Positions 4,267 through 36,518 of a stretch of DNA of 40,652 bases are shown here, in pieces. Source of the stretch: a virus. Positions within the stretch are counted from its first letter, which is position 1. Each line of letters starts with the position of its first letter. The DNA is taken from the IMG/VR virus record IMGVR_UViG_3300049046_000087, positions 1-40,652 of that record; one strand, written 5' to 3'. The notes beneath the pieces were generated by a model, which saw only the letters and a list, made by a program, of their open reading frames with translations, was not told the DNA's origin and made no database searches. Made by a program: the position numbers and the translations under genes.

Positions 4267-5361
4267 CTATCCTCGTCCTCTCAACGCCCCGACGCTGGCC
4301 TGGATGAACTGCGCCGCGAGTTCCGGCACGATTGCATTGCCGTAGCCCCGCAAGAGCCCCACTCGGCCGGGTACCCCATGAGCCAGCGGGAATGATCCGG
4401 GTTCAATGCGCCGCGCTTTGCCGTCGGTGCAGAGCACGAGATCGAAGGCGCTCCAGAAATCCGCGCCTGATCCGTCAACGTCTGCCCCGAATGGCCCGGC
4501 GACGAATGCCGCGTGGCCGTTGCGTTGCACGTGCTGGAAGAGTCCGCAACAGTCGGTGTTGCCCAGCCCGACAGCATCGCCACTTCGTTGAGCGGTCTCG
4601 AGTTCTGGCCGTGGAGATTGCTCTGGCCGTTCTTCCAATCGCGTGCCGCGCAAGTCGGCCAGCCGGCTACGAGCCCCGCTACGCTTTGCGGAGTTTTTCG
4701 AGCACGCAGCTCCCCCTGTCCGCGATTCTGCGACATATTTGGCGCGTCCGTGGTCGTTGGAGTCGGCCAGCCCGCGAGCAATGCCCTGTCGTTTAAATTG
4801 CTGCGATGTGTTTCGAAGGCGCGACGCTCCATTGCTCCGTTTACGTCCGACGTTTTCGGCGTGGGCCATCCAGAAAATTCGCTGGCGGATATGCGGCGCG
4901 CCGACGCCCGCAGCGCACAAATCGGCGGCCCCGACCTCATAGCCCAATGCTTCCAGGTCAACTCGTACTCCAGCGAGCCAATCACGCCCAGCCGCGCTCG
5001 CAACCTGCTCTCCAAACGCGCTTGGAGTTCCGAGGAACGTGAGGATATTTCGGAGGACTGGCCAGAGGTGGCGCTCGTCTTTTTCGCCGAGCTGCTTGCC
5101 CGCCGCGCTGAAAGGCTGACAAGGACAGGAGCCGGTGACGACACGTCGATTGTCGGGCCATCCTGCAAGGCGAAGGGCGTAAGCCCATCCGCCGATACCG
5201 GCGAAGAAATGATGTTGTGTGTAGTGCTGGAGTTCATACGGGTTTACGTCGACGATTGAACGCTCGTCCACATCGCCGGGCGGGATCAGCCCGGCTTTGA
5301 TGAGTTCGCGGAGCAAGGCAGCTGCCTTTGGGTCGAACTCGTTGTAGTATACGAGGCTCAC
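4267..5361 (-). CDS. C-5 cytosine-specific DNA methyltransferase
   Basis: The enzyme transfers a methyl group from S-adenosylmethionine to C5 of cytosine, probably protecting phage DNA from host restriction. In the 364-residue protein the family motifs are clear: motif I (FFAGIGGWAYALRLAGW, residues 52-68), motif IV GSCPCQPFSAAGK with catalytic C81, motif VI as GEQV (118-120; the usual Asn of ENV is Gln), motif VIII RQR (159-161), and motif X GYGNAIVPELAAQF near the C-terminus. The target-recognition part (about 170-300) is low in complexity and repeats a LADS/LADL/LGNT pattern. GTG 5361 is the start because it overlaps the upstream stop as GTGA. A second long frame (4281-5237) is open within it. 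Confidence 0.9.
   Translation of the reverse strand: MSLVYYNEFDPKAAALLRELIKAGLIPPGDVDERSIVDVNPYELQHYTQHHFFAGIGGWAYALRLAGWPDNRRVVTGSCPCQPFSAAGKQLGEKDERHLWPVLRNILTFLGTPSAFGEQVASAAGRDWLAGVRVDLEALGYEVGAADLCAAGVGAPHIRQRIFWMAHAENVGRKRSNGASRLRNTSQQFKRQGIARGLADSNDHGRAKYVAESRTGGAACSKNSAKRSGARSRLADLRGTRLEERPEQSPRPELETAQRSGDAVGLGNTDCCGLFQHVQRNGHAAFVAGPFGADVDGSGADFWSAFDLVLCTDGKARRIEPGSFPLAHGVPGRVGLLRGYGNAIVPELAAQFIQASVGALRGRG
4281..5237 (-). CDS. Overlapping +1-frame ORF inside the methyltransferase (GW[PA]T[PC] repeat protein)
   Basis: A 318-residue frame is open without a stop inside the methyltransferase gene, shifted +1. Its product is not random-looking. It has ELTWKHWAMRSGPPICALRA (about 92-111) and four spaced repeats: GWPTPKTSD (123), GWPTPTTTD (156), GWPTCAARD (192) and GWATPTVAD (224). 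The end is LNPDHSRWLMGYPAEW (278-293), followed by an Arg/Ser tail. From memory, similar GWPTP proteins are often annotated at phage cytosine methyltransferase loci. No clear ribosome binding site sits before ATG 5237. It could be a real second gene, or the shadow of a repetitive target-recognition region. Function unknown. Confidence 0.4.
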   Translation of the reverse strand: MNSSTTHNIISSPVSADGLTPFALQDGPTIDVSSPAPVLVSLSARRASSSAKKTSATSGQSSEISSRSSELQARLESRLRARLGVIGSLEYELTWKHWAMRSGPPICALRASARRISASEFSGWPTPKTSDVNGAMERRAFETHRSNLNDRALLAGWPTPTTTDAPNMSQNRGQGELRARKTPQSVAGLVAGWPTCAARDWKNGQSNLHGQNSRPLNEVAMLSGWATPTVADSSSTCNATATRHSSPGHSGQTLTDQARISGAPSISCSAPTAKRGALNPDHSRWLMGYPAEWGSCGATAMQSCRNSRRSSSRPASGR

Positions 5362-5633
5362 GCCTTCTTCTCCCAATACGCGCACGCCGGCGCCCTTGCG
5401 CGGATGTCGGTTCCCGGCCCGTGCGTCCATGCGTGCCGGATCTTCGCGCACTTCAGGTATACCTTTGCATACCGAATCCGGCAGCAGTGTGCGCACGTGC
5501 GGCACGTCTCGCCCTTCGGTCCAGATCCAGGAAGCGCGGCGTAGCCCTTCGGCCGCGTCTGCCGGCGCTTCTTCACACCGGGTGGTACCGGATCAAGCTC
5601 CACAATTGGATTGCCGAACAGATCCAAGCTCAT
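5358..5633 (-). CDS. Small cysteine-rich (zinc-ribbon-like) phage protein
   Basis: A 91-residue protein. Residues 40-91 carry Cys in the pattern ETCRTCAHCCRIRYAKVYLK, then a further Cys (KCAKI) and a final ACAYWEK. The segment HGPGTDIRARAPACAYWE is a conserved signature I recognise from many small phage proteins that sit next to cytosine methyltransferase genes. A zinc-bound nucleic-acid or protein contact is likely. ATG 5633 overlaps the upstream stop (ATGA) and its stop overlaps the methyltransferase GTG. A helper of the methyltransferase is possible, judged only by neighbourhood. Confidence 0.75.
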   Translation of the reverse strand: MSLDLFGNPIVELDPVPPGVKKRRQTRPKGYAALPGSGPKGETCRTCAHCCRIRYAKVYLKCAKIRHAWTHGPGTDIRARAPACAYWEKKA

Positions 5634-16405: not shown

Positions 16406-19400
16406 TCACCGGCGCGACGGCGCCAAGCTTTGCTGCAGCGCGCGATCGGCGCGCCGGCGACGCTCCTCCTCGCTCTGCTGCTGCGATGCCTCGAAGAGTC
16501 CTTGCAGGTACTTGAAGCGCGGCCGTTCCTGGTAGCTGCGCAGACCAGCCTTACCCCATCGCTCACTCGGGAAGAGGAGTTTTTCCCGGCCACGAATTGA
16601 GTTCATCTTGTCGTAATAGATGAACGCCTTTCGTAGCTGCTCGCGGTCGAATTCGCTCAGCGACTGCACAAACTCGCGGCGCAGTCCGTCTTTCTTCTTC
16701 AGCGCTCCAAGCGGATCCTGACCACGCACACTGCTAGCAAAGTTTTCAGATGTGTATCCATAATCCAATGCGCGCTTGTAGAAGTGCATAGCCGCTTCGA
16801 CGTCCCCGCGGTACACGGCTTTGCGAAAATTGCGCAAAACTTCCTCGTTTTTCTTATCACGGTCGGTGCGTGCAGCCGAATCACCGGTTTTAGCCTCAAG
16901 GAAGTCTGCCGCTTTATCCCGAATTGAATAATACGCCCACGACTCCGCGTCACGCTGCCGGACCTGCAAGATCAGCTGCTGCGCCCACGTTCCAAAGTCC
17001 TTCGGCGCATAATAGTCCCTATTCACAGTGCGCTCGACCACGTCCGCAGTAAACTCATCCGTGAGCATCGAAAGAATGGTGCGGCGCATGTCATACGCGG
17101 GAATCTTGCCGGGCTGCGTCACATCCGGGAAAATCCGTTTCTTAAAAAACAGCGCGGCAGGGATCTGAACTAACGGACCCGCTTGACCAAAAGTATTGTT
17201 TGCAAGGTCTGGCAGCAGTCGATCGCGCCAAGTGGCAACCGCGGTTGGAAAATCCATCTGCCCGCGCATCCACGCCGTGGATACGCGCACAAACTCGGGC
17301 CCCGAAAACCACTTCATCACGTCCATGAGCGCCAATGGGGCGTACATGACTTGCGCTTTGCCTTCACTGTCACGCCCGAGGATCAGGTGAAACCGACGCT
17401 TATCCTCTTCGCTCAGCTCGTCCTCGACGTCCTTATGCATCGAGTTGTTCCAGATCGCCACGGCGATATACGGGAGCGCCAGCCGTAGCACGATCGCGCC
17501 TGCCGCTCGCGCAGTGAAACCGCTAGCAAACACCGCTGCAGCCCGCGTTCCCGCCTCCAGCGCTTCGGCCCTGCTTTTTTCTCCGGCAATGGTCATGTCT
17601 CGCAGGTTTCGCAGCAGGTTGGCGTGATACTTAAAGTTCACCTCGAGCCAGCTGTAGAACGGGATAAATTTATCGCGCAGCGTGGAGCCCAACACGGAGA
17701 TATCCGCGTAATCGCCAAACGTCGCCTTGCTGATTGCCGCCGCCTTGCGCACGTCTGCGTCGTTTGCCCCGGGCTCACTGTCCTGGATCGCCTCAACGTC
17801 ACGCCAATACGCGCCGGCATACTCCGGCCGCGACCCACTCCGGATCCGTTCGAGGTCCGCTTTAAACTTCGCATACCGGGTGATTGCTTCACGCAGCGCG
17901 CTTTGCTCCACGCTGGTGACGCGGCCGGCCACGCCCCCATCCATAAAGAGGCGCGTCAAGTTCATCATCGGTGCGCTCACTCCGGCCTTGAACTCATTCC
18001 ACGCCTTTTTGCCACGGGTTTCAAACTCCGCAAAATTCGGCATCTGCGGCAGCGCCTTCATCTCTTGTGCAGTGATCGCGTTTAAGACGCCTTCTTTCAA
18101 CGCCGCCTGCAGATCCGGGCCAGGCGCGGCCCCCTTCCAGAAAGCCACCAGCTCTCTCGCGGACGGGATGAACTGTTTAAACGTAGCTGGATCCGCGGAA
18201 AAAATTTTCTCCAGGTCCGCGGAAATATTCCCGTACTCGTAGCGGATGTGGTTATGCGGGGTAAATAGCTTCCATTTCTTCCAGTAGCCAAGCGCTGCCT
18301 TTACAGCCACGTCTAGCGCTCCATTACGAAGATCCTCCCGCTCAGAAATCCCACGCAGCGCCTCTGCTACCTTGGCAGGCAGAATCCAAACTTCCTTGCC
18401 GCCAAGCTGCATCGTTTCCTTCAGATCCTCGGGCAAAAGTCTGATCCCGCGCAGGCCGAGATCGTGCAGTTGCTTTTGCAGATCTTCGCTCGTGAGCATT
18501 ACCCCCAGCCGCTGCGCCAGTCGCTCACGGTCGACGGTAACGGTCGGAAACGCGTCCTGGCTATCCGTCCCGTAAAGAACGTATCCGTTCGGTCCATACT
18601 CCTCGTGAAACGCAGCTTCCCAACTGACGCTATACCCTCGCTCTTTGGAGAGTTCTCGGGCCCGTTTCTCCACTTCCGCGCGCACGTCATACACCCGGAA
18701 ATTCTTTCTCACGATGTCTGCCCGGGCGTTGTGCGCACCCACCTGCACCAGGTGATAATACATCGCGCGCACGTAGTCGGTTTCAATGGGCTTATCGCTG
18801 CCCACTGGATCGATCAGGTAGCCGCGGAAATCGGCCTCGGTACTCGGACGCACTTTTTCTATCCGCAGCTCACGCTGCACAATCTTGTCGCCCTTGCGTG
18901 CCTCGAGCGTGACGTGCGGGAAATAGAATGGGTTGGCCAGTTCGTCGCCGGCCATCAGGTCCCGGCTCTTCAGATCATCGGCCACTTCCTTTACCAGCGC
19001 CATGTGCTGTTTAAGGGCCGACGCAATCAGATCCCGGTGCGGACTCGCCTCAAGCATCCCGGACAACCGGTCTAGCTCTGCTTCCACCTCGGCCGGGTTC
19101 AAATTGTACGGCAGGCGGATGGGTTTACCTTCGGAGTCCTTCAGGTTCTGCTGCCGCCAATTCAGATCCAAGAAAAGCACCAGATTCTGGAAGAGCACGT
19201 ACGGGTGCGACTCGGCCTCACTCGCGAGCGCCTCGAATGTCGCCAGCTGCTGAGCGGACGGCGTCCGCCCTTCCGCGCGCGCCTTGCGTATCGACTCCTG
19301 AATCTTCTGCGCCCGTGCGTACTTGTTCGCATCGAACTTTTCCACCTCGAGGAGCTTTTTCGTGATGGCGGCGACTTTCATCTCCGCAGTTTTTTGCACA

Positions 19401-22400
19401 TGGTCGCCGATCGACTTAAAAGCGCGGTACCCTTCCTTGGCGCGGTTGTAGAAGCTGGCGCCAAATTGGCGGATAAAGCGGTCTGTGGCGTTCCATGCTG
19501 CAGCCGGGAACGTCGGCAGTTCCGGCAAGGGACCGCGGATCCCAGTGAGAACGTTCCGCACCTTTTCCCACGCACCGTGTATCGCAGACGGCGTGACGGC
19601 GGTCTGGAACATGACTTTACGCGCGAGCGCCGGACGCACCGGCATGGGCACATCGGGCTGGGCGAATGGGGAAGGCTCGGAATCCTCCGGATTCGCGCCC
19701 TCGGTAACGATTGGCGGGACCGGCGGCTTGCCGGGAGGCGTGGCGTGGCCGCTTTCATTCCAGCCAGGGAATTCGCGATCGAGCGTTTGGCGCAGCTGCG
19801 CGGCACGTTTCTCGTGCCACGCGGCATCCACCTCCGACTGCAGCGAATCCTTGGCCCTCATCTGCCGCCCGCTGGTCTCGGCCTTATTCAGCTCCTCGAC
19901 CAATGCCGCTTTGCGATCGACCTGGGGCAGAGCCTCGACCTTTGCCGACGCCGCGATGATTTCGGCCGCATTGGGAATCTTCGTTTTGGGCGCTTCTGCT
20001 GCGCGTAGGGCGTCCATCTGCTTCGCCAGCTGCTTTGCCCTACGTTCGGCATTTCGCAGCGTCTGCTGCAGCCGTTTGCCCTGTTCTTCCACGTCTGGCT
20101 CCTGACTCTCGCGCAACGATTCCAATTCTGTGCGGGCGCGGTCAGCCTCCGCTACCGCAGCGTCAAATTCCGCGCCGAGGCGGCCGTAGGATTCACCAGG
20201 CGACGGCCCATTGCGCGCCTGTTCATTCAGGCCCGCGGGGAGACTTCCACCGGGTGGTTTTTTGTTTTTGCGGGCGGCGAATTGGACCTGGGCGCCCGGC
20301 TTGACGCCTCCGAAGAGATCCCCCAATGTGATGATTGCGCCAGGTGCAGGCCGATGGACCAACGCTGAGTCCTCCCCAGTGCGTCCCCGGAGATTCGTAC
20401 CGCCTGGCGCATCAATTTCTGTCGCGCTGTGGTCATACAGCAGCCGACCATCAGGGAGCTCGTTAACCGTGAGTTTAACACGGTAGATCCGCGGCCCAAT
20501 CGAGAGAGCTGCCGCAAAGCGGTGAACAGCTCGAACCTGGGGACGGTTTCTCTTATCCGCCTCTTTTGCGATATGTACCGCGCTGCGGAGCAACTCCGGC
20601 AAGGCCAGAGCAGCGTAAACGTTCTGCGGGCCCATGTGCTGGAAACCATGTGCGAGTGAGGCTTTGTTGAACGCGATTTGCGCGCCCGTGTCCTCATTCT
20701 TCACCGGCACATTGAACTTGTCCCGCATTGCCTCGATCACGGCCGCGCGCACCTCGGATGGATTGCGACCGCTGGCCGGGCGCTCAGGCAGCGCCACGAC
20801 GGCAACCTGCTTTGCCGCCAATTCCGGCGTTATTTGAAACGTCCGCTCTGGCTTCGGCGCCGGCGCCGGCTGCGACGCAAACGCGACCGCCTCCCGGTTC
20901 GGCGAGTACGTGCCGCCGGACTGCCAAAACTTCCGGAAGCCCTGTTCGAACAGCGCGCTTTCCGGGCTGATGCCTTGCCGGCGACTGATCCGCGCAAAAA
21001 CGCGGCGGAGCATGTCCCGGATATCAGCGGCGAGCCGGACGAGGAGCGGCTTTTCCGCACGGTTTACCCGCCCTTCCGCCCACTGCTGATTGATCAGCCG
21101 CACGCGTTCGGCGAACCACTCGCCAAAGCCGCGCTCGTTTAGATCCGTCACAAAACGCAGATCTGTGCGCAGATTCCTGTGCTGATCGAAGAGCGGTCCC
21201 GTCTTGTGCATCACTTCGGCGCGGTGCATCGCCTTCAGCGTGTCGACGGTTTGCTTGGGCAGCGCGTTTAGATACAGGTGGGCCACTTCGTGCGCCAACC
21301 GGGCAACGCCCGTTTCCCGGTTCCGGTACGCGCCGGAATCAATTACGATCGCGCCATGCCCCACGGCAGCTTCGGCGCCCTCCGGGATTTCGCCCTGGTA
21401 ACCGCGGGAACGCAGCTCGCGGGAGATCTCGCCAATGACGAGGTCATAATGCTTCGAAAGTTCACTGGCCGCAGCCTGTAGCAGTCCCTGCTCACGCTGC
21501 AGATTCACCGGAGCCGGAGCGGGCGCGGGCGAGGGCGCGGCGCCCTGCTGCTGGGAACCTGCGGCAAAGTCCACCTGCTGCGGTGAACCACCTTGAGACC
21601 AAACCGGTTTACCACGCAGGGCAATCCCGGCCCATTTGATCACGTCGTCAGGCGTCTGGATCTGCGAAAACCCGCGATCCCGGAGCGTTTCCGCCAAACG
21701 ATCGAGAGAGCCGCGCTGCGTATCAATGAACCGCATGCGCTGCGCTGGCTTCATCTCCTCTTTCAGTTGCGCGAGTTCGCCTCCGAACTTGGGATCCGTG
21801 GCCGGTAGTTTGAGCTCCGCCAAAACGTCAATGAGGCTCTCTGCCGTCGAAGGCTCGTCGCCCACCATCACCCGCCGGTCCATTTCCCGCTCGGCGCGAC
21901 GGTCACCAGCCTGCGCGCGCTGCGCCAGCTGCTGCTCAGAAAGTCGCGCGTAATCGATTCCCCCGGATGCGCCGATCCCCGCCGCTTCGGCCGCGGCCAC
22001 GCTCTTTTTATCTGCGGCAATCTTCGCCTGCTGCACGGCAGCCTGCTGCGCTTCCAAGTTCGCCCGCGCCGCAGCCAGCTTTTCGCGCCGGGCGTTCTCC
22101 GCCGGCGCCATCTGATTGGCCATATTCTGCAGCACCTTGACGGCACGCAGCGCGATTTCGCGCTGCTCCTGACTCAGCCCAAGAGAATTGTCGTCGGCGT
22201 AAAACTTTGCCGACTCGAGCGCACCTTGCACCGCCGCAAAGCTGCGCTGCGGATCCTTCGCCAGTTTGACCGCCGCCTGCATGGTCTCGTCAAACCGGCC
22301 GCGCTTCTGCGCGAGCTCCTGCTGGCGAGCTTCACGCTCGGCGCGCTCCCTGGCTTCAGCTTCCGCGCGCTGGCTCTGCTGCTGCTTGTCCGCCTGTAAC

Positions 22401-23929
22401 AGGTCCCCCACTACGCCGCCGCGGCTCTCCACAACAGACTGGGGCGATTTTGTGACTATCTTGCTGTCGGGCGCCTTCCGCGCCGTCATCTCGGACGCGG
22501 TTTCCTTCAGCGTCGTTGGTGTGGCCAACGCGGCTTTGATCTCGGTACCGTTCGGCGCCTGCTCCACAACGGCCGTAACCGGTTCGCCTGTGGCAGCGCG
22601 CGCATCAATGTCCGCCTTGCTGGCTGGCCCAAGTCCGAGGATTTCGTTTTCCCGGCCAGACTTGCTGGCCTCCACGATCGTGCCGGCGTCGATCTTCTCC
22701 GGGTTGAAGTGAAATATCCCGCGGTCCGTCTCGACGCGGCCGAAACCCTCCGGGAGCGGGAGCTCTTTTGTCCCTTTGGGAAACATCTGCACTTCTTGCC
22801 TGCCCTCGACCAACGCAGCCTGCTGCCGCTTCAGCGTGTCGACACTTTCAGGCGTGTTTCTGCCGGTATCCGCAGCGAGCCTACGAGTAGCGCCCAGCGT
22901 CACTTCGCCGAGACCGGGCACCAGTTCGCCGATACCCTCGGCCACAATGTCTTTCACGCTCAGGTCATCCACTCGGCCCTTGGTCGCGAGCTGCTCCGAC
23001 ACTTGCCCCGCAGCTTCGCCAGCCATGCCAAGCCCGGCCTGCTCGGCCAGCTCTTTGCCCACGCTCTTGACCAGCTTTTTCACGCCCTGCTTAGCCGCGG
23101 GTGCGGCCAGGCGCCCACCGATTCCGGCGGACAACGCGTCAAACACTGCCACCGGGATGCCGCGCGCCACACCTCGCTTTCTCGCTTCTGCTTGCACCTC
23201 CGGATCGGCGAAGGCGGACATGAGCGCGTCTCCGTCGCGAATATCAATTTTGCGGTCCCGCGCCACATCGAGCCAAGTCGACGCGTACTCAGAGCCGAAT
23301 GATCCCATGCCCGCACCCAGCGCTGTGCCAGCGGGCCCGGCGCCAGATCCAAGAGCGGCAAGCGCCAGCGCCGGCGCGCTGCCCACCATGCCTTCGGTGG
23401 CGATATTCAGCGGCACCTCAACGGGATTTTTGAGGAACTCGACGAACGCCTGCCCGCCCTTCGCGTCCTGGTATTTCTGGTAATCGTCAGAAACTGGAAT
23501 CTTCTCGGCGGCAGCGTTCGACTCTGCAGCGCGCGTGAGCGCATTTTTCACGGATCCTTGCATGCCTTCCGCGCGTTCGCGCAGTCCGCGAGCTGTCTTC
23601 CGGGCCCGCTCGGCCCACGCGGCGCGATTCTCCGGAGACCACGACGGCTGCAACTGATCGATCGTATCCGCCTGCTTTTCGAGCCGCTCGGCGTCGGTCA
23701 GGTAGTCATCACGGCGCCCACCCGCGCCAACCGCGCTGGCCACATTGACGGTGGACAGCGCACTGTGCCCAGCACGGCGCGCCGTGTTCACCAGCCCTTT
23801 GACGGCGCCGATGTCCTCAAATTCGGAATACGGATTCGGCGCGGAGTCCTTCTCCTCGCCTTCCCATCCAAAGTTTGAATACGGGTTTCCTTGCTCTTCG
23901 ACGCCGAACTGCTCGTAGGGGTTTTTCAC
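16406..23929 (-). CDS. Giant internal virion/ejection protein with zincin and nuclease-like domains
   Basis: A 2,507-residue protein, probably packed in the capsid and injected with the DNA. The N-terminus repeats NPYEQFG, NPYSNFG and NPYSEFE (residues 3, 15, 32). Then come a hydrophobic Gly/Ala-rich stretch (about 185-215), a long Gln/Ala/Glu coiled coil (about 500-670), and a zinc-peptidase-like domain with H880-E-V-A-H884 and later Glu 937 or 941. Residues 1030-1190 resemble the 'large polyvalent protein' nuclease-like domain (SLAHGFQHMG, IYRVKLTVNEL). Further regions are helical, with a hydrophobic segment near 2130-2163 that could span a membrane. GTG 23929 overlaps the previous stop as GTGA. 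Domain calls in the centre are by pattern only. Confidence 0.8.
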   Translation of the reverse strand: MKNPYEQFGVEEQGNPYSNFGWEGEEKDSAPNPYSEFEDIGAVKGLVNTARRAGHSALSTVNVASAVGAGGRRDDYLTDAERLEKQADTIDQLQPSWSPENRAAWAERARKTARGLRERAEGMQGSVKNALTRAAESNAAAEKIPVSDDYQKYQDAKGGQAFVEFLKNPVEVPLNIATEGMVGSAPALALAALGSGAGPAGTALGAGMGSFGSEYASTWLDVARDRKIDIRDGDALMSAFADPEVQAEARKRGVARGIPVAVFDALSAGIGGRLAAPAAKQGVKKLVKSVGKELAEQAGLGMAGEAAGQVSEQLATKGRVDDLSVKDIVAEGIGELVPGLGEVTLGATRRLAADTGRNTPESVDTLKRQQAALVEGRQEVQMFPKGTKELPLPEGFGRVETDRGIFHFNPEKIDAGTIVEASKSGRENEILGLGPASKADIDARAATGEPVTAVVEQAPNGTEIKAALATPTTLKETASEMTARKAPDSKIVTKSPQSVVESRGGVVGDLLQADKQQQSQRAEAEARERAEREARQQELAQKRGRFDETMQAAVKLAKDPQRSFAAVQGALESAKFYADDNSLGLSQEQREIALRAVKVLQNMANQMAPAENARREKLAAARANLEAQQAAVQQAKIAADKKSVAAAEAAGIGASGGIDYARLSEQQLAQRAQAGDRRAEREMDRRVMVGDEPSTAESLIDVLAELKLPATDPKFGGELAQLKEEMKPAQRMRFIDTQRGSLDRLAETLRDRGFSQIQTPDDVIKWAGIALRGKPVWSQGGSPQQVDFAAGSQQQGAAPSPAPAPAPVNLQREQGLLQAAASELSKHYDLVIGEISRELRSRGYQGEIPEGAEAAVGHGAIVIDSGAYRNRETGVARLAHEVAHLYLNALPKQTVDTLKAMHRAEVMHKTGPLFDQHRNLRTDLRFVTDLNERGFGEWFAERVRLINQQWAEGRVNRAEKPLLVRLAADIRDMLRRVFARISRRQGISPESALFEQGFRKFWQSGGTYSPNREAVAFASQPAPAPKPERTFQITPELAAKQVAVVALPERPASGRNPSEVRAAVIEAMRDKFNVPVKNEDTGAQIAFNKASLAHGFQHMGPQNVYAALALPELLRSAVHIAKEADKRNRPQVRAVHRFAAALSIGPRIYRVKLTVNELPDGRLLYDHSATEIDAPGGTNLRGRTGEDSALVHRPAPGAIITLGDLFGGVKPGAQVQFAARKNKKPPGGSLPAGLNEQARNGPSPGESYGRLGAEFDAAVAEADRARTELESLRESQEPDVEEQGKRLQQTLRNAERRAKQLAKQMDALRAAEAPKTKIPNAAEIIAASAKVEALPQVDRKAALVEELNKAETSGRQMRAKDSLQSEVDAAWHEKRAAQLRQTLDREFPGWNESGHATPPGKPPVPPIVTEGANPEDSEPSPFAQPDVPMPVRPALARKVMFQTAVTPSAIHGAWEKVRNVLTGIRGPLPELPTFPAAAWNATDRFIRQFGASFYNRAKEGYRAFKSIGDHVQKTAEMKVAAITKKLLEVEKFDANKYARAQKIQESIRKARAEGRTPSAQQLATFEALASEAESHPYVLFQNLVLFLDLNWRQQNLKDSEGKPIRLPYNLNPAEVEAELDRLSGMLEASPHRDLIASALKQHMALVKEVADDLKSRDLMAGDELANPFYFPHVTLEARKGDKIVQRELRIEKVRPSTEADFRGYLIDPVGSDKPIETDYVRAMYYHLVQVGAHNARADIVRKNFRVYDVRAEVEKRARELSKERGYSVSWEAAFHEEYGPNGYVLYGTDSQDAFPTVTVDRERLAQRLGVMLTSEDLQKQLHDLGLRGIRLLPEDLKETMQLGGKEVWILPAKVAEALRGISEREDLRNGALDVAVKAALGYWKKWKLFTPHNHIRYEYGNISADLEKIFSADPATFKQFIPSARELVAFWKGAAPGPDLQAALKEGVLNAITAQEMKALPQMPNFAEFETRGKKAWNEFKAGVSAPMMNLTRLFMDGGVAGRVTSVEQSALREAITRYAKFKADLERIRSGSRPEYAGAYWRDVEAIQDSEPGANDADVRKAAAISKATFGDYADISVLGSTLRDKFIPFYSWLEVNFKYHANLLRNLRDMTIAGEKSRAEALEAGTRAAAVFASGFTARAAGAIVLRLALPYIAVAIWNNSMHKDVEDELSEEDKRRFHLILGRDSEGKAQVMYAPLALMDVMKWFSGPEFVRVSTAWMRGQMDFPTAVATWRDRLLPDLANNTFGQAGPLVQIPAALFFKKRIFPDVTQPGKIPAYDMRRTILSMLTDEFTADVVERTVNRDYYAPKDFGTWAQQLILQVRQRDAESWAYYSIRDKAADFLEAKTGDSAARTDRDKKNEEVLRNFRKAVYRGDVEAAMHFYKRALDYGYTSENFASSVRGQDPLGALKKKDGLRREFVQSLSEFDREQLRKAFIYYDKMNSIRGREKLLFPSERWGKAGLRSYQERPRFKYLQGLFEASQQQSEEERRRRADRALQQSLAPSRR

Positions 23930-33283: not shown

Positions 33284-34396
33284 TCAGGGATACGTGGTGA
33301 CCTTAAAGTCTTTCACGATGAAAGCCTCGGTACCGTTGCTCCAATTCATGTTCACGAGGCCGGCGTAGCGACCGGCTGCGCTGCCAATCGCGGAATCAAT
33401 CGCGAGCTTCAGCGCCCCGTTGGCCCATCCCTCTACACGCGTTGGCGTGACCTTGAGCTTCATCGCTACATCACCCCCAGGCCACGCTTGCACGAGCGTG
33501 CTAGCGGCTCCAAAATCTTTCAGTTCGAGTGACCACCCACCAATTCCGTTGTCATAGGTGAATGAGCACCGCTCTAATTGCGAGTTCGTGCCGCTGCTTT
33601 CTAGGCGAGCCATAACCCCGACGGCTGCGCCGCCTTGCGTGCTGGCCTGGTTGATCGTGGCATCCACGTCGTAAGTCTCACCAGAGATCGACGGCGTAGC
33701 ACGGTAGCGTCCTGCGCCAGCCGCAGCTGGATTGCGCACCGCGCTGCTGGTTGAATTAATCGTCAGATCAGACGAGCCCGTGAACTTCACCCAGGCGGTT
33801 CCTGTATCCGGCGTGTGGATACTCAGCTCAGGATTACTCGCCTGAACAAAGAGATCGTTGAACACGATCGTAGATCCCGCAGCGATCGTAACGGTGAATG
33901 TGTCGTCAACCGTGAGGCCGCCCGCGTCCGTCGCACGAATTGTGACCGACTCCGTGACAGCCGCCGCCTTGGAAACAGTGAGCGTTTTATTGCGCGTTCC
34001 CGCCAACGAAGCAGACGCCGGAGATCCAACAATTGAATACGTCAGATTTGTATCTGCGCCGTCGTCGTCGAAGTAGGTGTCTAGGTCTAGCACGGCGTCC
34101 GAATCGCCGGCGACGCCGGTCTGGTCCGGAATCACCGTGCCGACCGTCGGCACCTGATTCGCTCGCAGCACGTTTGAGAGACTGCTCGAAACGTCCGGGT
34201 CAGGCGTCTGATTGACTGCGCGCACTGCGATGTAATCCGTGCGAGCGCCGCCCGCGACGGTTGTTGATTGACTCGCTCCGAGAGTGCCGACCGCGACGGT
34301 TGCCACGACGGAAGACGGAGGATTAGTGGCCGCGCGCAGCACTTCGATGTGCGTCGCGTTAGCGGGTGGGTTGGTCCATGTGACGTTGTGGCTCAT
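33284..34396 (-). CDS. Ig/cadherin-like plus lectin-like virion protein
   Basis: A 370-residue secreted-type beta protein. Residues 1-80 look like a fibronectin-III-like fold (ATHIEVLRAATNPPSSVVAT). Residues 82-172 look like a cadherin/He_PIG domain (LDLDTYFDDDGADTNLTYSI, SVTIRATDAGGLTVDDTFTV). Residues 175-370 look like a concanavalin-type jelly roll. The set suggests carbohydrate or surface binding. ATG 34396 overlaps the hydrolase stop as ATGA, so the two are coupled and probably sit in the same tail structure. Confidence 0.7.
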   Translation of the reverse strand: MSHNVTWTNPPANATHIEVLRAATNPPSSVVATVAVGTLGASQSTTVAGGARTDYIAVRAVNQTPDPDVSSSLSNVLRANQVPTVGTVIPDQTGVAGDSDAVLDLDTYFDDDGADTNLTYSIVGSPASASLAGTRNKTLTVSKAAAVTESVTIRATDAGGLTVDDTFTVTIAAGSTIVFNDLFVQASNPELSIHTPDTGTAWVKFTGSSDLTINSTSSAVRNPAAAGAGRYRATPSISGETYDVDATINQASTQGGAAVGVMARLESSGTNSQLERCSFTYDNGIGGWSLELKDFGAASTLVQAWPGGDVAMKLKVTPTRVEGWANGALKLAIDSAIGSAAGRYAGLVNMNWSNGTEAFIVKDFKVTTYP

Positions 34397-35955
34397 GAGA
34401 ATTCGACTGAGGTTAGAACGGGCGCGTCCGGAGTATCGTCGACGAATGTCACCGCGGTGAGTGTTGGTGCGTCAGGCGTTCCGGCCGGTGGAACCAAATC
34501 AAAAGCATACGAGGTTACGCATTCGGCCGGGAGCGCGACGGTGATGCTGGTCGATCCAATTGAGGGAGTTGGCGGAGTGCCCCAGCGGGTGGCAGCCCCT
34601 TCCGAGTGTTCGCCGCTGTAGGTGCCTACTAGAGTCCCGCCAGTAAGGTTGATTGTAATCGCACGGGCCGTGCTCGCGTTGTTGATGAGCACGACAGAAA
34701 ATTTATTCGTCGATTTGAATGCTGTGACCTGCACAAGCGAATCGTTCGAGGAACTGCTGACGACTTGGGAGCCTACCGGCGCGACACGCGAATAATGTCC
34801 AATCGCCCGGGACATCCCGGTTTTCGTCAACACACTCGTGTCATTGTGCAGGAGTGCGATGGTCGACTGTTCGTCGAAGTAGTTCGTGTTCCCGAAGTGG
34901 TCGATGTGGCTATTTCGGTCCCAAATCAGGAGCATTCCGAAAAACGCGGAGGCCCGAGCATAGCGCATTTCGTCGTGAATGTGGATGGCGCGAGCGCGCA
35001 AGTAGCGGATGTCTTCGGGGTCTGGATACGACGAATTTCCCGGACCTTCGGAGACTTCGGTCATCCAGAGTTTCTTGCCGTATGTGTTCGCGAGGCTTAG
35101 CAAATTCGCCCGCGAGGCGTTCGCCGTAGCGTTGGGCGTTCCCGCTCCTGACTGCGCCAGAATATTTACCACAGAGGCGTACGCTGAGCCGTAGGGGTAC
35201 GGGTGATACGAGATCGCGCCGACGTACTGGCGAGCCGTCGCGTCTGCTAGAATCGCCGTCGCCGACTCGATGGACTTATCCATCGTTTCTTCGCTCGGCA
35301 CCACCAGCATGACGTTATTGTAGCCGCCTGCGCGGAAACGTGCGCCAACTGCTTTGACGATGTCTACGAGGTCCTGCGTAATACCGCCTTCGATTTCCTG
35401 CCCTCCAGAAAGTGGCTCGTTGTAGAGGTGGTAATAATCGGGCTCGTATCCCATCTGATTGACCCACCGCTGAAATCCGACGAAGGCGAATTCGGCACAC
35501 TCGGACAGATAGGTGTTGTAATTCGAGGCTCGGATGGTGCGCAGCCACGCCATCACGGTGCCTTTCGTCCACAACCGCACACCGCCTACACGCATCGTGA
35601 CTCCGCGGCTTGCGGCACCGCTCGCGATGCCGCTTACATAATTATCGACTCCGCGAAAATCGAACGTCCCTGCTGTATTCGCGTCGCTGTCGTCATTCGC
35701 GTTTGCTTCCATCGCGCCGTCGTCGCAGTAGGGCAGATTGATTTTACAATCGCCGAACACGTAATCGAGCAACGCAGTGCGCTGCGGCGCGGTCAGGTAA
35801 TCTAAACTTCCGCCGCCGCCTTGCGCGTAAATGAGCGGACGTCCGGTCGCACCGAAGCCGTCCAACGTTTGGTAAGCGGTCGCCAAATCGACCGCCACCG
35901 TCGCCGCGGTGGCTTGGCTAAGGTTGCGACGGTGCGCAGCGGCAAGAAGCCTCAT
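34393..35955 (-). CDS. GH30-like glycoside hydrolase in the tail region
   Basis: A 520-residue protein. It has the (beta/alpha)8 barrel signatures of the GH30/clan-A type: QTLDGFGATGRPL near the N-terminus (29-41), YHLYNEPL with E180 as likely acid/base, WMTEVSEGPG with E300 as likely nucleophile, and ISYHPYPYG (249-257). A beta-sandwich follows (about 385-488). The C-terminus holds two near-copies of TPDAPTLTAVTF and TPDAPVLTSVEF. ATG 35955 overlaps the previous stop (ATGA). Among fibre genes it is probably a tail enzyme cutting the host's surface polysaccharide; the substrate is not known. Confidence 0.75.
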   Translation of the reverse strand: MRLLAAAHRRNLSQATAATVAVDLATAYQTLDGFGATGRPLIYAQGGGGSLDYLTAPQRTALLDYVFGDCKINLPYCDDGAMEANANDDSDANTAGTFDFRGVDNYVSGIASGAASRGVTMRVGGVRLWTKGTVMAWLRTIRASNYNTYLSECAEFAFVGFQRWVNQMGYEPDYYHLYNEPLSGGQEIEGGITQDLVDIVKAVGARFRAGGYNNVMLVVPSEETMDKSIESATAILADATARQYVGAISYHPYPYGSAYASVVNILAQSGAGTPNATANASRANLLSLANTYGKKLWMTEVSEGPGNSSYPDPEDIRYLRARAIHIHDEMRYARASAFFGMLLIWDRNSHIDHFGNTNYFDEQSTIALLHNDTSVLTKTGMSRAIGHYSRVAPVGSQVVSSSSNDSLVQVTAFKSTNKFSVVLINNASTARAITINLTGGTLVGTYSGEHSEGAATRWGTPPTPSIGSTSITVALPAECVTSYAFDLVPPAGTPDAPTLTAVTFVDDTPDAPVLTSVEFS

Positions 35956-36518
35956 TGCTGCGCCCCCCACCAGTACACCACACCGGCTTCGGTCGCATCG
36001 GTGCAGAATATTTCTACGACCACTTTCTTATTTGCCGGCACAGTAGCCAGCGCGCCTTCGATAGGCACCCAGCCGGCTGGCAATGTCATCGTCCGCTGCG
36101 AACCGTCACCCGTCAGAATTAAACGCATGCGACGGCCGGCCGCGTATCCACTGGCTGTATACGTCGTGTTGCCGCTGAGGCTATGCAAATGCACTTTTTC
36201 AGGCGCAGCAAAGACCAGCGCAGGCGACGTTCCCGTAAGGGCACTTACCGGCAGTGTGACCGCATCCGCGACTGTCGCCTGGTCCGCGACTTCGGCGGCA
36301 TCCACCTTGCCATCGAGATCCGTGTCATAGACGGAACGCGTCATATCGCCGGTACCAGCCAGCCCGATGATGGCGCCCGTAGGCGTGATACGGACGATAG
36401 CGTTGCCGTCGTAGTCTTCGACGCGCAGCATATCCTCCTGCTGCAGCTGATCCTGGCCGCCGCCGAGGATGTTTTTCTGCGGGCGGATTGTGATTTGGTG
36501 AAAGTCGATGGAACTCAT
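35952..36518 (-). CDS. Fibre-type virion protein with an EF-hand loop
   Basis: A 188-residue protein. The N-terminus (DMLRVEDYDGNAIVRITPTG) is typical of fibre base parts. Residues 65-76 (DTDLDGKVDAAE) form a perfect calcium-binding EF-hand/dockerin-like loop with D65, D67, D69, G70, D73 and E76. The second half is a beta-rich tip (HLHSLSGNTTYTAS, RMRLILTGDG). It may need calcium to fold or attach. ATG 36518 overlaps a possible minigene's stop and its own stop overlaps the hydrolase ATG. Confidence 0.65.
   Translation of the reverse strand: MSSIDFHQITIRPQKNILGGGQDQLQQEDMLRVEDYDGNAIVRITPTGAIIGLAGTGDMTRSVYDTDLDGKVDAAEVADQATVADAVTLPVSALTGTSPALVFAAPEKVHLHSLSGNTTYTASGYAAGRRMRLILTGDGSQRTMTLPAGWVPIEGALATVPANKKVVVEIFCTDATEAGVVYWWGAQQ

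Follow-up and report, generated by a model that had tools for sequence, protein, structure and literature searches.

Nested genes in phage C5-cytosine methyltransferase loci and the two-subunit enzyme that they are predicted to encode

A 40,652-base phage record from IMG/VR, the whole of which is referred to here as the window, carries on its minus strand a C5-cytosine methyltransferase gene (here alpha) and, entirely within it, a second gene read in the +1 frame (here beta). Dual coding of the stretch 4281-5237 is real, a conclusion that we regard as virtually certain. The two products probably form a C5 methyltransferase with two subunits from nested genes, comparable to M.EcoHK31I, a reading to which we give a probability of roughly 85%, with both the activity and the complex predicted from sequence. 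According to this model, the main frame would yield alpha, with motifs I-VIII, which serve cofactor binding and catalysis, and motif X. The nested +1 frame would yield, from its own ATG, beta, in which a small conserved core is followed by a few recognition modules of the form GW[PA]TPxxxD, four of them in the query phage, and then by motif IX. Beta would be translated in the query phage, assemble with alpha into one active enzyme, and supply a small DNA-reading domain, with the module set determining which sequences get methylated; the phage would likely use the enzyme to guard its own DNA against host restriction. New here are the scale of the phenomenon, the embedded start sites, and the apparently TRD-like modules in beta, while M.EcoHK31I is a known two-polypeptide precedent. 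To our knowledge, long gene-in-gene overlaps with both products conserved are rare.

Features of the locus in window coordinates:
5358..5633, minus strand: upstream 91-aa ORF with a 4-nt overlap (GTGA) with the alpha start, read from the sequence
4267..5361, minus strand: alpha, C5-cytosine methyltransferase with motifs I-VIII and X, no IX (PF00145, phrog_363)
4846..5361, minus strand: alpha catalytic large domain, motifs I-VIII (HHFFAGIGG, PCQPFS, GEQV, APHIRQRIFW), ORF residues 49-220
4456..4845, minus strand: overlap of alpha with the beta modules, residues 221-350, predicted disordered linker (AlphaFold)
4327..4353, minus strand: alpha motif X (LRGYGNAIV), with invariant columns L385, G389, N390, and I392 in alignment A2
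4281..5237, minus strand: beta, nested +1 gene of 318 aa with GWPTP modules and putative motif IX (phrog_1008, stop depletion, fixed residues, shuffles)
4884..5045, minus strand: beta conserved core, residues 65-118, helix plus beta hairpin, LESRLRA..EYELTWK..PPICALRASARR (alpha wobble 0.07 per codon, pLDDT 57-82)
4773..4871, minus strand: beta module 1 (GWPTPKTSD...); the alpha frame reads MAHAENVGRK
4665..4772, minus strand: beta module 2 (GWPTPTTTD...); the alpha frame reads LADSNDHGR
4569..4664, minus strand: beta module 3 (GWPTCAARD...); the alpha frame reads LADLRGTR
4413..4568, minus strand: beta module 4 (GWATPTVAD...) and linker; the alpha frame reads LGNTDCCG
4356..4412, minus strand: putative beta motif IX (GALNPDHSRWLMGYPAEWG), with a profile match to actinophage motif IX; the alpha frame reads PLAHGVPGRV

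Two coding frames under selection

The 412-codon ORF at 4267-5505 (minus strand) matches PF00145 (E 9.4e-12) and phrog_363 (E 2.9e-70). Alpha probably starts at GTG 5361 rather than GTG 5505, because that start overlaps the upstream ORF in GTGA and aligns with the YYNEF start of its homologues; the 4-nt overlap with 5358-5633 suggests translational coupling of alpha. An earlier note on this DNA had claimed a 318-residue open +1 frame at 4281-5237, and that claim is exact: a 318-codon ORF with an ATG start lies there on the minus strand, in +1 relative to the ORF 4267-5505 and wholly nested with either methyltransferase start. Its product carries the four repeats described, GWPTPKTSD, GWPTPTTTD, GWPTCAARD, and GWATPTVAD. 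The sequence given as its ending, LNPDHSRWLMGYPAEW, is present too, but 25 residues from the C-terminus and not at the very end. A search of protein sets with the product, as had been proposed, returned two database families, phrog_31772 and phrog_1008, the latter matching beta residues 4-300 (E 9.4e-35).

The earlier note had proposed either true dual coding or one repeated DNA unit that gives structure in both frames. To examine homologous loci, we retrieved 80 viral loci by querying with the methyltransferase only, so that the +1 frame had no role in their choice, and all 80 have a long open +1 frame similar to the window's +1 product (P0001). Across 71 nonredundant loci (the window plus loci from both the methyltransferase and the +1 queries), we observed 34 stops in the +1 frame against 258 expected from synonymous permutation and 363 expected from neighbor codon usage. 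The +2 frame is not depleted (786 stops observed, 735 expected). Many of the 34 stops are probably the frame's own terminator, as is the one in the window. Stops in many close homologues, the result that would have spoken against a coding +1 frame, are therefore not what these loci contain.

Synonymous change in alpha is reduced within the overlap. In close pairs of aligned loci, alpha wobble changes per codon amount to 0.18 before the overlap, 0.15 in its first part, where the poorly conserved beta N-terminus lies, 0.07 over the beta core, 0.065 in the C-terminal part spanning motifs IX-X, and 0.26 past the beta stop. There is thus a 2- to 3-fold drop over the beta core with recovery after the beta stop, and the synonymous constraint is confined to the overlap while the frame stays open across homologues, as expected of an overlapping gene. 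Changes at first positions (the beta wobble) exceed those at third positions in the modules and C-terminus; in these parts, the constraint that the +1 protein places on the DNA is no weaker than that of alpha. Most of the repetition in the LADS/LADL/LGNT region of alpha is accordingly a side effect of the GWPTP modules.

The same pattern is evident at single residues in an alignment of 68 loci, in which beta keeps its W, T, P, and D where the methyltransferase residues vary. Where alpha has L, M, or V, beta has the W of LTWK (frequency 1.00), and where alpha has L or V, beta has the W of GWPTP (1.00). Alpha G/S corresponds to beta A (1.00), alpha A/T/S to beta L (0.94), alpha H/N/D to the M of WLMG (0.97), and alpha P/A/S to beta P (0.97). 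One glycine uses GGG in 96% of cases.

These data also bear on the possibility that the +1 frame is untranslated and only a by-product of GC-rich codons at the LAD[ST]/LANT repeats or of a repeat at the DNA level. LAD[ST] written in the preferred codons CTG GCC GAC TCC does read GWPTP in +1, and a +1 profile still gives the methyltransferase gene 93 bits (93.5 +/- 16.9) after synonymous shuffling (2,000 shuffles). From that profile, which leaves out the window and its closest relative, the window's +1 frame receives 336.9 bits, however, and the shuffle maximum is 158; codon bias as the source of the frame is rejected by this comparison and by the stop counts under synonymous permutation. Moreover, the +1 signal holds at GC 0.43-0.5, the wobble constraint extends to the unrepeated parts LTWK..ICALRASARR and WLMGYP, Shine-Dalgarno sites are embedded in the gene, and GGG and AGG codons persist at places where nothing but the +1 reading or its Shine-Dalgarno calls for them. 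A repeated DNA unit shaping both frames fails as a full account, since the +1 amino acids are conserved and nonrepeated parts are constrained, and we consider the chance that beta is an untranslated by-product to be negligible. The earlier suggestion of true dual coding is instead borne out, by the stop depletion, the lower synonymous change in the overlap, and the database families for the product. The length of the frame is only suggestive, since a 318-codon open run arises in 0.7-1.8% of shuffles (13 of 2,000 with the gene's own codon pool and 36 of 2,000 with phage codon usage); conservation is decisive.

Beta also appears to have its own translation start. Counting as Shine-Dalgarno a 4-mer about 5-10 nt upstream of a +1-frame ATG, we found such a pair inside alpha codons in 48 of the 68 loci, versus 12.3 +/- 3.1 expected from synonymous choice. 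Two start sites are common: alpha V-D-E (GGAGTTGATG) and alpha E-R-S-I-D. An example of the latter, GAA AGG AGC ATT GAT G, uses the rare AGG. The beta ATG of the window (5237) lies at a third position with no recognizable Shine-Dalgarno, which makes its initiation the weakest point of the case.

Ribosomes might instead make a canonical one-chain enzyme through two shifts, the first (+1) bringing them into the GWPTP frame once motif VIII has been read and the second returning them ahead of motif X, and the order of motifs is indeed split across the frames exactly as two compensating shifts would need. Such a scheme needs both shifts within one gene, however, and it leaves without purpose both the openness of the two frames through the entire overlap and the Shine-Dalgarno-ATG that the +1 frame has for itself in the 48 loci above. 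Programmed frameshifting is disfavored by these conserved internal start sites, and we regard it as very unlikely.

Division of the methyltransferase motifs between alpha and beta

Alpha has recognizable PF00145-type motifs I, IV, VI, VIII, and X (HHFFAGIGG, PCQPFS, GEQV, APHIRQR, and GYGNAIVP), all in invariant or nearly invariant columns. Its catalytic part is predicted by AlphaFold with a pLDDT of mostly 80-96 (residues 51-200), and the C-terminal helix is also confident. Residues 221-350 have a pLDDT of about 36-53 with hardly any secondary structure, and alpha alone is therefore without a predicted recognition domain. At the position expected for motif IX, alpha reads PLAHGVPxRVG; of the motifs by which membership in PF00145 is judged, IX is absent from the query phage's own alpha chain. 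Since this motif is found in +1 and not in the alpha frame, alpha appears to be a partial, split member of PF00145.

We compared beta with C5 methyltransferases of actinophages. Some of these have LLPTPxxxD modules and, after them, L[NS]xxFxEWMMxLPxGWVT, all in one frame and lying between motifs VIII and X; the modules are not in all of these enzymes. Fancypants gp73, Derg gp4, and JKSyngboy gp4 resemble beta in having such modules and such a segment, but unlike the query locus they encode a single chain whose motif IX shares its frame with I-VIII and X. In profile-profile comparisons, the beta modules align to the in-frame actinophage modules (E 7.5e-08, probability 94.5), and the beta C-terminus aligns collinearly with the actinophage segment. 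Taken alone, this C-terminal segment matches over 23 columns (E 9.4e-09, probability 95.7), versus E values of 0.0045-0.52 for eight column-permuted controls of the motif IX match. By position, the C-terminal segment of beta (LNPxHSRWLMGYPxEW) thus corresponds to motif IX, and the GWPTPxxxD modules together with it are homologous to the VIII-X region of the actinophage enzymes.

The frame that carries the motif IX core separates the two types of locus. It lies solely in +1 in 218 of 247 nested-type loci and in the alpha frame in one, whereas 29 of 34 actinophage enzymes have it in frame and none has it in +1. Our motif IX regular expression missed 27 nested loci, and the nine of these that we inspected had the +1 motif with small substitutions. 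Each locus thus appears to have a single motif IX, either in +1 or in frame. Enzymes with an in-frame motif IX have z values of 1.3-4.3 for the +1 score, which is little or no signal of a nested gene. In the single exception (L176:2832-3943), the alpha frame crosses into the beta frame before RLTxSG..WLMG and so brings motif IX in frame, through either a natural frameshift or an assembly error.

Two further short C5 methyltransferase genes have no in-frame motif IX. In Mycobacterium phage Rialto gp76 (L271:1720-2433), the +1 frame has a motif IX-like end, PNPTWLAWLMGFPVEW (z 4.5), and in Stenotrophomonas phage SBP2phi2 (L270:1771-2535) it ends in LNPCFGDWVMGWVTGW (z 2.3); the statistics of both are weaker. 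These +1 ends suggest nested beta genes outside the methyltransferase family considered here.

The AlphaFold model of beta alone has a mean pLDDT of 56 and a pTM of 0.23, with moderate confidence for the helix-hairpin core and the motif IX helices and poor confidence for the modules; such a poor model might be expected if beta folds on a partner. Foldseek with this low-confidence model gave no match at E <= 0.001. PDB searches with beta, alone and as a profile, gave no meaningful match, and the search with a profile of just the motif IX segment gave no methyltransferase. Pfam matched the 54 beta proteins only sporadically and weakly, with no methylase model among the matches, and Rfam had no match across the locus. 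With neither a PDB methyltransferase nor a Pfam methylase among its matches, the designation motif IX rests on homology to the actinophage enzymes and on position.

Dual coding by itself gives no function, and beta could be a translated overlapping gene whose product is an accessory protein acting by itself, such as an anti-restriction or regulatory factor, and is no subunit of the methyltransferase; its model, without a significant fold match, would fit this as well. Against such a role, beta is never found apart from alpha. All 266 records, which include some redundant loci and count the window twice, have both frames with a +1 overlap, including loci found by the methyltransferase query only and by the +1 query only. 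In addition, the beta modules and motif IX are homologous to and collinear with the VIII-X region of one-chain enzymes, and alpha is without motif IX and without a folded recognition domain. We therefore consider an accessory protein unlikely and favor the two-subunit methyltransferase. The earlier note had offered no function for the +1 product, for which the beta subunit of a split methyltransferase is the role that these findings favor.

A further step is to propose that beta, not alpha, carries the TRDs, and that these loci form a widespread class in which specificity evolves by shuffling of dual-coded cassettes, each obliged to remain open in both frames, with similar modules in different slots and alpha's copy of them reduced to a disordered linker. 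We put the chances of this proposal at about even. If beta is the recognition subunit, then cloning such enzymes, or predicting them, from alpha alone misses half, and M.EcoHK31I becomes one case of a large class.

Relation to known multipart and multispecific methyltransferases

M.EcoHK31I is the one nested enzyme known to us: its small polypeptide, of 176 aa, is encoded within the large gene in a different frame. The small gene here (4281-5237) is likewise nested, in +1 in 4267-5361. Multispecific phage methyltransferases of the SPR and phi3T type have tandem TRDs in the catalytic frame. The query phage similarly has several tandem putative recognition modules, of about 38 aa, here in +1 and not in the catalytic frame.

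M.EcoHK31I (YGGCCR) consists of two polypeptides, a large one with motifs I-VIII and X and a small one with motif IX (Lee, Kam and Shaw 1995, summarised in PMC3404938), and both are needed according to the title of Lee et al. as cited in PMC3404938. Compared by description, the query locus is alike, with I-VIII and X but no IX in alpha and a putative IX in beta. It differs in that its genes are phage genes with no restriction partner seen, that beta is longer (318 aa), and that beta has several GWPTP modules. The TRD-like homology also lies in beta in the query phage, whereas the predicted TRD of M.EcoHK31I is placed in the large subunit (PMC3404938). No cognate restriction enzyme is annotated near the Klebsiella aerogenes and Citrobacter freundii plasmid matches.

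M.AquI (CYCGRG) is split in the variable region, its small subunit having the distal variable region plus IX and X (PMC3404938); there, too, two polypeptides make one C5 methyltransferase, but the query locus keeps X in alpha, and its genes are nested. Complementation by fragments of M.SssI is best when the C-terminal piece begins between VIII and the TRD (PMC3404938), which is near where the beta modules begin. M.BatI, a prophage C5 methyltransferase, is reported to fall 20-30% short of the usual length and to have a very short TRD (PMC8936443). The literature that we searched contained no description of nested phage methyltransferases, and the main text of the GeneTack frame-transition paper does not describe a nested methyltransferase. 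REBASE curators may already recognize many such pairs.

Spread, annotation, and module variety

Using +1 proteins as queries, we identified at least 591 related viral stretches and at least 227 in bacterial genomes, the latter including Proteobacteria, Planctomycetes, Verrucomicrobia, relatives of Desulfovibrio, and a Bacteroidetes MAG. The nested arrangement is thus conserved in hundreds of phages and bacteria, and the phages are those of several bacterial phyla. Measured against synonymous shuffles, the +1 score reaches z values of 8.9-14.4 in N15, epsilon15, K1ind2, Bas74, LASTA, SalP219, 6947, Alma, PhiXhv-28, and the low-GC Paenibacillus phage Xenia.

Database annotation of the nested pair is haphazard. 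Only alpha is annotated in N15, epsilon15, and Bas74, only beta in PMG1, and both under one name in K1G, K1ind2, and PhiXhv-28. Both phrog_1008 and phrog_31772, labelled "DNA methyltransferase," match all 54 beta proteins of alignment A1; they are clusters of the same beta product, and the name gives no indication of the frame relation, the split, or the mechanism.

Most beta proteins have 2-5 modules, with a median module length of 38 aa. Modules that share 70% identity or more are found at different slots in different phages, which fits cassette exchange; the 70% threshold was used since single linkage at 45% merged nearly all modules, and the largest 70% cluster may be chained. Two loci have unusual layouts. 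One is a tandem pair of nested alpha/beta loci, the end of one overlapping the start of the other (L031:507-2224). In the other (L067:2568-4553), the beta frame runs stop-free into a downstream sequence that by eye resembles a phage protein of the sliding-clamp type, leaving 662 codons open; the two may be naturally fused, or the downstream gene may be in frame by chance.

Elsewhere in the window, all on the minus strand, a terminase small subunit (PF03592) is encoded at 2054-2674, about 1.6 kb downstream of the methyltransferase end. A 525-aa protein at 34393-35970 has a marginal match to a glycosyl hydrolase 30 C-terminal domain (22.3 bits, cutoff 22), and a 2507-aa phage protein at 16406-23929 has a single match to the LPD3 polyvalent-protein domain.
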